NCBI GenBank assembly: GCA_016871495.1
Contig: VHDF01000023.1
Location: 1 to 62,298, forward strand
Direction: 5' to 3'
DNA: 62,298 nt
Source of the DNA: Verrucomicrobiota bacterium
GTDB lineage: Bacteria; Verrucomicrobiota; Verrucomicrobiia; Limisphaerales; VHDF01
In this document: in pieces, positions 47,075 through 62,298 of the stretch
Position numbering within the stretch: the first letter of the stretch is position 1
How the letters are laid out: each line of letters opens with the position of its first letter
The notes under the pieces: generated by a model
What the model was told of the DNA's origin: nothing
The model's input: the letters and a program-made list of their open reading frames with translations, nothing else
Database searches by the model: none
Position numbers and translations under genes: made by a program

Positions 47075-49372
47075 ATGAATAAAAGTAACTGGACGGGGTG
47101 GCGTCACTTGGCCTATTTCCTGGTCGTTTTCGCCCTGGGATTGGATATCCATCGAGCGGCTGCTCAGCCCATTATTCTGGTCGAGCCACGAGACGTGAAG
47201 GTCACCGTGCGCGGAGGCGAGCCGCCTCCCGCCACCGGTTGGACGATCCTGGTGTACGGGCATGGGGATCATAATCTTTCCCAGTCTTTGATCGAAGACA
47301 TCCAGGAGATGGAAGAGGCGGGGAGTGGTCCGGGATTCGAAATCATTGTGCAAGCGGACTTCGACGCCGTGGCGCCGAATCGAGGATTGCCGCCCAATCT
47401 GGCTGGCGGCGTGACCCGGTTTCGTGTGACCGCCGACACCGATCCGGGGCTGATTACGTCGCAAGTCTTGGAGCGGATGCCGGAATCGAAGAACATGGAC
47501 GACCCGCAGGTTTTGGCTGAATTTCTGGCCTGGGGATTCGCGAAATATCCCGCGCAACGCTACGGCTTGGTGATGTGGAATCACGGCGGGCAGTGGATCG
47601 GCTTCGGTGGTGATTCACAGGACAGCACCCTGCAACAAAAGAGCATCCTTCGAACGGGGCAGATTCGAGATGCGGTGTCTCAAGCGATGGCCGCCGCGGG
47701 CGTCAAGAAGCTCGATTTCGTGGCCTTCGACACCTGCCTGATGGGCGGCATCGAAGTGCTTCCAGACATGGTTCCTTTGACGGACGTTTACATCGCCTGT
47801 CCAGAAATTGACTATGGCGACGGCTGGAACTACGGGCCGACGCTGAAGTATTTGAAGCAAAATCCGGCCGTTTCGGCGCTCGATTTCGCCCGGCGCGAGG
47901 TCGAATTGTGGCGGGAACAACACATGCAGCCGGGAAAAGCTTCGGATCTTGCCTTGGCGGCGCATGCCGTCTACGACCTGACTCAATACCCGAACCTGGC
48001 TCAGAAATTTCAAAGTTTTGGTTCCGCTTTGAGGTCCTCAGCGACCCTTGACAACACCTGGCTTCCCCGGCTGCGGTTGCAAGCGACCGAGTACAGCGTG
48101 GCGGATGTGAGAGAGATTGGCCGGCCGACGGATTTCGTGGATTTGGGAGAACTGGCGCGGTTGATCGAAACGGCGCCGACCGCTCCGGCGGCCTTGAAGG
48201 TGGCGGCGCGCGAACTGGCCGAAGCCGTGGACCGGACGGTGGTGGCGAAGATCATGGGCACTTCGAAGGAACGTGCCAGCGCCTTGTCCGTTTACTATCC
48301 GGTCGCAGGATCGAGTGTAGGGAGCCCTTACTTCGACATTTCGAGCTCGAAGTCGGATGGTGCCAGCTGGCCTGGTTTGCTGGATGACATCGCCAAGAAC
48401 AAGCAACGGGACGCCACGGCACCCTCGGTTTCGTTGCTGGATTCGAATTCCGGTCAGCCTGTGCCGGACGTGATGGAGACCACGTTGACCGCATCAGCCA
48501 ATTCCCCGGCTCACATTCGTTTTGCCATTACGCAAGGAACCGACGCCACCGAATTTACAGCTGCCCTGGTGGCGAGAGGGACTGGAGCGAATCAGGATGT
48601 GTTCATTCATTTTGGGGAAGTCGCGAGCCAGAGCATTGCCGGGGCGGGCACGTACGAGTTCTGGTGGGATACCCGGATTCCGCAATTGTCGGATGCGTCG
48701 GGGCGCAGAGCTCCGCTCGGAGCCTTTTTCGCCGATACGGGTGCGACCCTCCTGGTGAGCTTTGCGCTGTATTCGCCCAATGGAGATCCGAACGCGTCTC
48801 AATTCGTTGTGTTGCTCACGGAACGCGCAGCGGCGGGAAGTCTTCAGATCGTGGATGTTCTGGATGGGGAATCCGGTTCCTTGGCCCCGATCGGGATCGA
48901 GGTGGCCCCGGGCGGAACCTTGCAACCGGTTTACTACGTCGAGAAACGGGCGGGGGCTGACCCAAGCCAATGGCTGGCGGATTATCTCCCCTCGGGGGAG
49001 TCCATCACGATTCCTGCTTCGGGGTTGGCCGGGTTGAAGGCGCAGATGGATCCGGTCGATCCGGGCGAATTCGATATCGAAGTGCAAGTGGAAGACGCCT
49101 ATCAGAATGAGAGCCGGGTGCTTACCTTCAATGTGCGGGTGGAAGGCGCGGGTGGAACCCCGGCCTTGACCCTCACCTCCGCGGACGGCCAGGTGACTTT
49201 GCATTGGTCTGAATCGGCCGGTGAAACTTGGGCATTGGAATCCACCAACGCTCTGGGCAGTGGAGCCTGGGAAAATGTGAATCTGAATGCCGCGATCCGG
49301 GAAGGGACCCAAGTGCGTTTCACCCAGCCAAGGGGTGTGGGCGCGCGCTTCTTCCGGTTGAGAAAGCAATGA
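47075..49372 (+). CDS. Clostripain-family (C11) cysteine peptidase, secreted
   Basis: A 765-residue exported peptidase. After a signal peptide (YFLVVFALGLDIHRAAA) comes the C11 domain: WTILVYGHGDHNLS, catalytic His170 in LVMWNHGGQW and catalytic Cys221 in FDTCLMGG. C11 enzymes cut after Arg or Lys and often self-activate. The second half has Ig-like beta domains, and the protein ends with ARFFRLRKQ, a tail shared with other secreted proteins here. ATG 47075 fits the signal peptide; the frame upstream to 46832 overlaps the BNR gene and is not credible. A hairpin follows the stop at once. Confidence 0.9.
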   Translation: MNKSNWTGWRHLAYFLVVFALGLDIHRAAAQPIILVEPRDVKVTVRGGEPPPATGWTILVYGHGDHNLSQSLIEDIQEMEEAGSGPGFEIIVQADFDAVAPNRGLPPNLAGGVTRFRVTADTDPGLITSQVLERMPESKNMDDPQVLAEFLAWGFAKYPAQRYGLVMWNHGGQWIGFGGDSQDSTLQQKSILRTGQIRDAVSQAMAAAGVKKLDFVAFDTCLMGGIEVLPDMVPLTDVYIACPEIDYGDGWNYGPTLKYLKQNPAVSALDFARREVELWREQHMQPGKASDLALAAHAVYDLTQYPNLAQKFQSFGSALRSSATLDNTWLPRLRLQATEYSVADVREIGRPTDFVDLGELARLIETAPTAPAALKVAARELAEAVDRTVVAKIMGTSKERASALSVYYPVAGSSVGSPYFDISSSKSDGASWPGLLDDIAKNKQRDATAPSVSLLDSNSGQPVPDVMETTLTASANSPAHIRFAITQGTDATEFTAALVARGTGANQDVFIHFGEVASQSIAGAGTYEFWWDTRIPQLSDASGRRAPLGAFFADTGATLLVSFALYSPNGDPNASQFVVLLTERAAAGSLQIVDVLDGESGSLAPIGIEVAPGGTLQPVYYVEKRAGADPSQWLADYLPSGESITIPASGLAGLKAQMDPVDPGEFDIEVQVEDAYQNESRVLTFNVRVEGAGGTPALTLTSADGQVTLHWSESAGETWALESTNALGSGAWENVNLNAAIREGTQVRFTQPRGVGARFFRLRKQ

Positions 49373-49373
49373 A

Positions 49374-49410
49374 CCTCCCGACTGACTTAAGCATCAAGTT
49401 AGTCGGGAGG
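49374..49410 (+). terminator. Strong hairpin directly after the clostripain-family gene
   Basis: CCTCCCGACTGACTT pairs with AAGTTAGTCGGGAGG across a 7-base loop (one G-T pair). There is no T run, so it may be an RNA-stabilising or mobile palindrome rather than an intrinsic terminator. The left half recurs at 50009-50026, which favours a dispersed repeat. Confidence 0.6.
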
Positions 49411-49670
49411 GTCAAGCACCTAGCCTCAGACATCCTGACCCCAAGCAGGAGATGCGGGACGGATGAAGAAGGGATGTGAGACCAGAGTGACGTGAAGCGG
49501 CTCGGTCGCAAGCCGGAGGCTTGCCAGCCTTTGGCCGGTGGTGGAGGAGCCCAGCGACGATACCACCGGTCCACCGGGTCGCCCGAGCATGTTCATCCTG
49601 GAGGGATGGCAGCGCCGCTGGTGTCAATACCCGGAAAATACTCAAGGACAGACATATTGAGCACCTCAAG
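49411..49670. other. Repeat-rich non-coding sequence after the peptidase gene
   Basis: No gene is seen. It includes AAGCCGGAGGCTTGCCAGC-like short palindromes and, at 49645-49659, AGGACAGACATATTG. The latter is a near match to the AGGGACAGACATATTG motif beside the RAYT gene at the end of the window. Confidence 0.6.
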
Positions 49671-49897
49671 AATCCCAACGGGATTCCGTCCCGAAGCCCA
49701 AGGTTGCGAGGAACGAGCTACCTGGGGTCACAGTTCGCAAATGGAAAACAACCCCAACGGGGTTGTGACGAAATCGTATTTCCATTTTCAGGGGCAAAGC
49801 CACAACCGCGTTGCGGTTGAATTCATTTCCCATCGGCGACCCAAGGTAGCTCGTTCCTCGCAACCTTGGGCTGGAGGACACAATCCCTTTGGGATTG
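49671..49897. repeat. 227-bp nested palindrome (large inverted-repeat element)
   Basis: Two 34-bp arms with one mismatch (49696-49729, containing AAGGTTGCGAGGAACGAGCT, and 49838-49871) face each other. Four short palindromes sit at 49671-49685 (AATCCCAACGGGATT), 49749-49765 (CAACCCCAACGGGGTTG), 49803-49819 (CAACCGCGTTGCGGTTG) and 49881-49897 (CAATCCCTTTGGGATTG). Arms and palindromes are all symmetric about position 49784. A transcript would fold into one long branched hairpin. It encodes no protein. Confidence 0.88.
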
Positions 49898-50177
49898 AAG
49901 GCCGGATTCCGTCGCCGTAGGCATCGCCGATTCCGTGGCGGATTCGCCCTGGAAACAATTATGACGGGAGAGCCATTTAGATGAAGAAGGCGGTGGCCAA
50001 AGGATTGAACCTCCCGACTGACTTGATGCTCAAGCTACTCACCATTGCGCACCCCGGCCCGGCGGAGTTTTTGGCTTACAATGGCAATTGCCGTTTTAAG
50101 CGTAAAACACCGTTCCGCCTCGTGGCGGAAATTCCGGGCTCGGGAACAGGCCGGAAGTTTTCGAGCTGGCGCCGCCT
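49898..50177. other. Non-coding stretch with a half copy of the CCTCCCGACT hairpin
   Basis: GAACCTCCCGACTGACTT at 50007-50024 repeats the left arm of the hairpin at 49374. Both copies carry a following TCAAG. No gene is supported here. Confidence 0.55.
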
Positions 50178-61607: not shown

Positions 61608-62068
61608 AGGGACAGACATTTTGAAAGTAAAAGGGACAGACATTTTGAAAGTATGTGGGAGGAAAGACTCCTGGCGGCAGTGGGCAGCCATTCCGGTGGG
61701 GCCGAAGTTCCGCCTGAGGCGGGTCGCCCAGGCAGGCAGTTACCAGATCTGAAGAAGATCCTGAATTCCGGGACAAAGCTAAGCCGCAACGATTCAGTTG
61801 GAATTGGTTTCTTTAATGCGTTTTTGGCTGGATGGAACGATGCTGATGCGGCCACGGACTCAACTGCATTCCAGTTGGGAGGAGCCATCAGTTTGGCCAA
61901 TATTTCCAGCCACCACGCCCTTTGATCGGGCCTTCGGATCGCCAGTTTGAGGGTCGGTTTGCCCTGAGCCCGGCTCCACACTGCGGCCTTGGTGAACAGC
62001 CGCCACCGCAGCGTCTGCAGTTGGCAGTGTTGCTCCTGCCCGCATCAAACTTAGGGACAGACATATTG
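61608..62068. repeat. RAYT-associated AGGGACAGACAT motif copies around non-coding DNA
   Basis: Two identical 22-bp copies (AGGGACAGACATTTTGAAAG at 61608 and 61632) and a third, AGGGACAGACATATTG (62053-62068), flank about 400 bases without a supported gene. The third lies 45 bases before the RAYT start. Frames in between are short and unremarkable, and may be decayed. Confidence 0.75.
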
Positions 62069-62113: not shown

Positions 62114-62298
62114 ATGAGACAGGCGAGGATGAAGGTTCCGGCGGATCGGGAAGCCGGGTATTACCATTGTGTGTCCCGAGTGGTGGATCGACAGTGGAAG
62201 TTCCAGGAGGCCGAAAAGGATAAGTTCGTGACCATCCTGCGCGAATATGAAGCGTTCTGCGGGGTTAGAGTCCTGACTTACTGTGTGATGTCCAACCA
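62114..62298 (+). CDS. REP-associated tyrosine transposase (RAYT, IS200-like Y1), 5' part
   Basis: The first 61 residues of a Y1-type transposase, cut by the window end. It starts MRQARMKVPADREAGYYHC, then VSRVVDRQWKFQEAEKDKF, and reaches the strand before the HUH motif (LTYCVMSN, expected to be followed by HFH). This is the typical RAYT N-terminus. Such proteins are single-copy genes that move or maintain small palindromic repeats. The AGGGACAGACAT motifs upstream are its likely recognition sequences. The catalytic Tyr lies beyond the window. Confidence 0.88.
   Translation, partial: MRQARMKVPADREAGYYHCVSRVVDRQWKFQEAEKDKFVTILREYEAFCGVRVLTYCVMSN

Follow-up and report, generated by a model that had tools for sequence, protein, structure and literature searches.

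In Escherichia coli, the REP-associated transposase TnpA-REP binds REP sequences in single-stranded form, depends on the GTAG tetranucleotide as well as on an unpaired position within the stem, and cuts at CT (PMC8266576). According to the accessible part of one report, REPs tagged with GTAG are also known from Verrucomicrobia (O. terrae) and Planctomycetes (PMC3733652); in the literature covered, which was thin on subscription papers, no other source joined REPtrons with Verrucomicrobia. Among the TnpA_Y1 transposases, a survey published in 2018 defines a subclass 1.2 by the motifs DH[IV]H, WQ and Y---Q--HH and a length of about 148 aa (PMC6006769). This subclass, found mainly in Cyanobacteria and Bacteroidetes, is entered in the table of that survey with 'no' for REPs, and is reported to be without IS properties (PMC6006769).

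The window analyzed here, a stretch of 62,298 nucleotides of DNA from a Verrucomicrobiota bacterium (contig VHDF01000023.1), contains a 227-bp palindrome at positions 49671-49897. This element is very probably a REP doublet of the BIME/REPIN type, that is, two inverted three-hairpin REP units that form a non-autonomous derivative of a REPtron without its transposase gene. The palindrome, first reported in the initial annotation, is borne out by folding both as RNA (-136.3 kcal/mol, z -12.0) and as DNA (-82.3, z -12.3), with none of 200 shuffles as good in either case. Its outer arms (49671-49743 and 49824-49896, 73 nt) are 84% complementary and its inner arms (49744-49767 and 49801-49824, 24 nt) 83%; both blocks fold into a single long hairpin, and the symmetry, which had been called perfect, is imperfect. 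The four small palindromes are indeed symmetric about 49784, but they belong to two types instead of one: a P1 pair lies outside (AATCCC..GGGATT) and a P3 pair inside (AACCCC..GGGGTT and AACCGC..GCGGTT). Similarly, the sequences described as 34-bp arms are mirror-placed, but each is in fact one more hairpin, P2 (CCCAAGGT..ACCTTGGG). The palindrome is thus confirmed as a real structure and not a one-off, composed of an inverted pair of units of about 98 nt. A frame of 142 codons stays open through all of it (49492-49920), and repeats of this sort may be a source of spurious protein predictions.

Unit 1 lies on the forward strand at 49669-49767 (covariance model R1, 93.3 bits, E 2.8e-16) and unit 2 on the reverse strand at 49801-49898 (102.2 bits, E 3.7e-18); R1 has 98 positions and was built from 72 diverse units, and its E-values are approximate, as the calibration was shortened. 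From 5' to 3', a unit consists of P1, about 6 nt, an nnAG foot, P2, about 20 nt and P3, with a 7-bp stem and a 3-nt loop in both P1 and P3, and its length ranges from about 85 to 105 nt. In unit 1, P1 (49670-49686, GAATCCC-AAC-GGGATTC) shows compensatory changes in five of its seven pairs over the 72 units. It is followed, on the same strand, by the foot GAAG (49693-49696), directly 5' of P2 (49697-49727, CCCAAGGT-T-GC..GC-T-ACCTgGGG, with one substitution), and by P3 (49749-49765, CAACCCC-AAC-GGGGTTG); beyond the sequence itself, P2 is supported by alignment and covariation and P3 by covariation. A spacer of 33 nt (49768-49800), whose place is taken by the transposase gene in REPtrons, separates this unit from unit 2. 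There, all on the reverse strand and read from the sequence, come P3 (49803-49819, CAACCGC-AAC-GCGGTTG in unit orientation), P2 (49840-49870), the foot CCAG (49871-49874, CTGG on the forward strand, also supported by the unit alignment) and P1 (49881-49897, CAATCCC-AAA-GGGATTG in unit orientation). In the subfamily of the window, P2 reads CCCAAGGT-T-GC...GC-T-ACCTTGGG, with a conserved T.T mismatch.

The foot occupies the position equivalent to that of GTAG in classical REPs. AG stands just before P2 in all 72 aligned units and in 65 of 69 units that flank RAYT genes; the first base is mostly not G, so that the foot departs from that of the GTAG superfamily (GTAG, GYAG, GTRG or GYRG), and exact GTAG occurs in just 8 of the 69. 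The three stems are well supported by covariation. Over the 72 units, 97.3% of pair cells are standard, double-changed cells number 128 against 35.5 +/- 4.2 after shuffling, with slid controls all far lower, and 12 of 24 pairs have changed on both sides. For the units around RAYTs, the alignment of which was fitted to the covariance model, the corresponding values are 98.8% paired, 365 double-changed cells against 93.5 shuffled, and double changes in 18 of 20 pairs.

A DNA search of the host genome (5.06 Mb in 201 contigs) returned 13 near-complete copies with 90-95% identity and many partial ones, and the search with R1 gave about 68 unit matches. Most of these units are paired in inverted orientation around a 33-nt spacer, and single units and fragments also occur outside dimers. 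A second subfamily has units of 104-105 nt, and a third is represented by a diverged pair on contig C176. Outside the host, DNA matches were obtained in 30 of 58 genomes of the order (one genome per family), and a pattern scan of named genomes located the unit, among other records, in Verrucomicrobia, Planctomycetes and Blastocatellia. A strict P2 pattern, too strict to measure distribution, matched 4 of 240 genomes of the phylum. Rfam gave no match at the element, either at the gathering threshold or at E<1, and the phage records searched gave none to it. In one contig labelled Treponema denticola (DYPP01000135.1), a window-type transposase is accompanied by a unit; this contig is probably misbinned, or else the product of horizontal transfer.

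In relatives of the host, which were sampled unevenly, the units are associated with genes for Y1/HUH transposases of about 150 aa, and coordinates from the element search coincide at several loci with those of a Pfam Y1_Tnp search of the order genomes. A unit was present within 200 nt at 47 of 62 such loci, some of which had been chosen for their adjacency to a unit, and at 21 of the 27 for which the Pfam score had been the sole basis of choice. An upstream unit in gene orientation was found at 36 of the 62, a downstream inverted unit at 30 and both at 22, while 15 had no unit at the threshold used. With model and threshold unchanged, units were found at none of 24 control loci (56 kb) of other Y1 transposases, mostly of about 320 aa, and this longer class was rejected as the partner. 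The initial annotation was therefore right in kind when it proposed a mobile, RAYT-related origin, since units of relatives lie on both sides of RAYT-like genes, but it looked to the wrong gene. The RAYT at the end of the window (62114-62296) is a partial Y1 gene ending in LTYCVMSN, like the longer class; judging from these loci, the cognate genes are of the different, 150-aa class.

The motif AGGACAGACATATTG at 49645-49659, 11 bases to the left of 49671, had been taken as a further link to RAYT genes, but it stands beside only some copies and is absent from the 24 longer-class Y1 loci of the host and its relatives. As AGGGACAGACA, it occurs in the window at 61608, 61632, 62053 and 49645 and is over-represented in the genome, with 16 places against one for the reversed control; it is found upstream of the partial Y1 gene at 62114 and also beside several three-hairpin copies. 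As a RAYT mark it was rejected, since in relatives the loci of the longer Y1 class did not have it nearby. A second neighbor is a repeat of about 185 bp that ends in CATCAAGTTAGTCGGGAGGTT, present in the window at 50005-50092 and at 52 places in the genome, which often adjoins three-hairpin pairs and the end of which also forms an inverted 38-bp hairpin at 49370-49410. It was considered as part of one larger element; since it is also present where the palindrome is absent, and can lie to the left or to the right of the palindrome, it is treated as a separate repeat.

Units beside different transposases have different stems and a constant layout. In the tree, the transposases accompanied by window-type units fall into a single group (1 change against 14.6 when shuffled, 0/500); its branch support is modest (65/79), and one change is what 61% of bootstrap trees require. 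Similarity among proteins is correlated with similarity among units, both for P2 (Mantel rho 0.23) and for the rest of the unit (0.25), with 0/2000 permutations in each case. On this comparison, units and transposases co-diverge. The transposase profile matches Pfam Y1_Tnp and, in the PDB, the ISHp608 transposase and solved IS608-type structures. Y---Q--HH is found in 65 of 72 of these transposases, and DHVH and WQ in 61 each; by motifs and length, they would thus be assigned to TnpA_Y1 subclass 1.2. On a plasmid of Persicobacter (Bacteroidota), a gene resembling subclass 1.2 is preceded by a unit at a distance of 34 nt and followed by an inverted one, and more unit pairs are present besides those that bracket the gene. 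For a similar gene on a Bernardetia plasmid the model found no unit. Short CAGCTnCGTAGCTGC-type palindromes unmatched by the model lie on both sides of that tnpA (1060-1200 and 1614-1800), and may represent another type of repeat.

The host genome itself has a single intact gene of the 150-aa class (C176:2418-2813), which falls elsewhere in the tree and stands beside the diverged unit pair. A stretch of the window at 49513-49581 resembles a fragment of the third subfamily, to which this pair belongs (P2 CCGGTGGT..ACCACCGG; 77% over about 70 bp). On another contig (C95:13733-13810), a truncated window-type transposase gene retains its initial 25 codons (72% identity to intact ones) and lies 87 nt past a window-type unit; over 265 bp, this locus can be aligned to an intact REPtron from another genome (71.7%, E 1e-37). 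The locus is, to judge by this alignment, a decayed REPtron, from which we infer that the host once carried a cognate transposase gene. As the assembly is 97% complete, an intact copy may be missing from it; as none is in the assembly, the host copies are probably no longer mobile, unless they are served by another Y1 enzyme.

The doublet could alternatively be an RNA or DNA element that serves the host, such as a terminator, an mRNA 3' stabilizer or a gyrase or IHF site, whose mobility is secondary. Such roles have been reported for classical REPs (PMC6006769), the RNA fold is very stable, and 25 of 26 host copies are intergenic on the analysis's own gene calls, with 9 convergent, 12 tandem and 2 divergent pairs of neighbors. 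However, a host function would leave the flanking of tnpA by units unexplained, and it fits poorly with the patchy occurrence in order and phylum, with the co-divergence with a transposase and with the lack of an Rfam match; we consider it unlikely. Still less probable is a MITE whose ends are recognized as terminal inverted repeats by a DDE transposase that mobilizes it. The long inverted repeat and the many dispersed copies would be expected of such an element, but single units and fragments exist outside dimers, the structure under constraint lies within the individual unit, and the gene bracketed by units encodes a Y1/HUH transposase.

Selection on the long symmetry as such had also been suggested. 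In 12 dimers, pairing reaches 97.9% inside units against 87.7% arm-to-arm, and among the 41 pairs whose bases are not the same in the two partners, 29 are Watson-Crick in each of the units. What covariation maintains is the small hairpins: the constrained structure is the three hairpins within each unit and not the long palindrome, which, given the poorer arm-to-arm pairing, is a consequence of inverted dimerization. A chance or one-off structure, or a palindrome selected as such, would account for nothing beyond the single copy and, in view of these pairings, of the dozens of copies in the host and of the matches in many other genomes of the order, has a negligible probability.

For the REP doublet, a mechanism can be proposed by analogy with E. 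coli. The parent REPtron would have the layout [P1-P2-P3]-tnpA-[P3'-P2'-P1']. When a unit becomes single-stranded, for example on the lagging-strand template, its hairpins would fold, and the HUH/Y1 enzyme would recognize P2 and the nnAG foot, probably helped by the T.T mismatch and by P1 and P3. The site of nicking would be a dinucleotide that the foot determines, predicted to be CT from E. coli TnpA-REP, and the segment would be moved without target duplication. Cleavage at CT agrees with AG as the last two of the four foot bases, and this AG is what is conserved here; it is by such a mechanism that we infer the units to be cut and moved.

More generally, subclass 1.2 may represent an ancient REP system in which the mobile unit is a fixed cluster of three hairpins (P1, foot with P2, and P3) that the enzyme reads as one; neither for REPs nor for the ends of IS200/IS605 elements has a recognition architecture of this kind been described. 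This system would be present in Verrucomicrobiota and Bacteroidota, and probably in Planctomycetota and Acidobacteriota; we regard this wider proposal as evenly balanced. The units described here, for their part, provide a transposase subclass recorded as REP-less with a putative substrate and a probable biological role, and extend the REP-RAYT partnership to a three-hairpin form across phyla. In addition, the naturally diverged pairs of enzyme and repeat offer material for testing recognition rules, and an intergenic repeat common in Verrucomicrobiota genomes, with no match in Rfam or in the phage records searched, is accounted for.

Compared with the REP, BIME and REPIN sequences of Escherichia coli and Pseudomonas and their TnpA-REP (RAYT), the present system shares dispersed, mostly intergenic hairpin repeats with compensatory changes, inverted doublets, AG in the 5' tetranucleotide and a stem mismatch (in P2). 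It also shares the arrangement of a Y1/HUH gene between a repeat and its inverse, which is found in relatives, whereas the host has only the gene stub beside a window-type unit. It differs in having three hairpins over about 85-105 nt, where those REPs have one of 20-40 nt, in its nnAG foot, of which exact GTAG is a rare form, and in an enzyme that is not of class 2. With the GTAG-tagged REP superfamily it has in common a foot followed by a hairpin and the existence of heterodimers, but the accessible part of that report describes single hairpins of 20-40 bp and no flanking P1 or P3 (PMC3733652).

TnpA_Y1 class 3 and subclass 2.6, noted for 'atypical secondary structures' (PMC6006769), also have non-canonical repeats around a Y1 gene and a high copy number in some genomes, but their Y motifs differ, and the foot of class 3 is CnGA as opposed to nnAG. 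IS200/IS605 elements such as IS608 share terminal hairpins and, as the profile matches to solved structures indicate, the Y1/HUH transposase. In these, tnpA and ends form one high-copy element, whereas the host has one intact gene for 68 unit matches; each end here carries several separate hairpins, and dimers without RAYT far outnumber gene-bearing copies. With TnpA_Y1 subclass 1.2 (PMC6006769), the transposases share DHVH, WQ, Y---Q--HH and a length of about 150 aa; what sets the present system apart is the presence of three-hairpin units resembling REPs, observed in Verrucomicrobiota and on a single plasmid from Bacteroidota.
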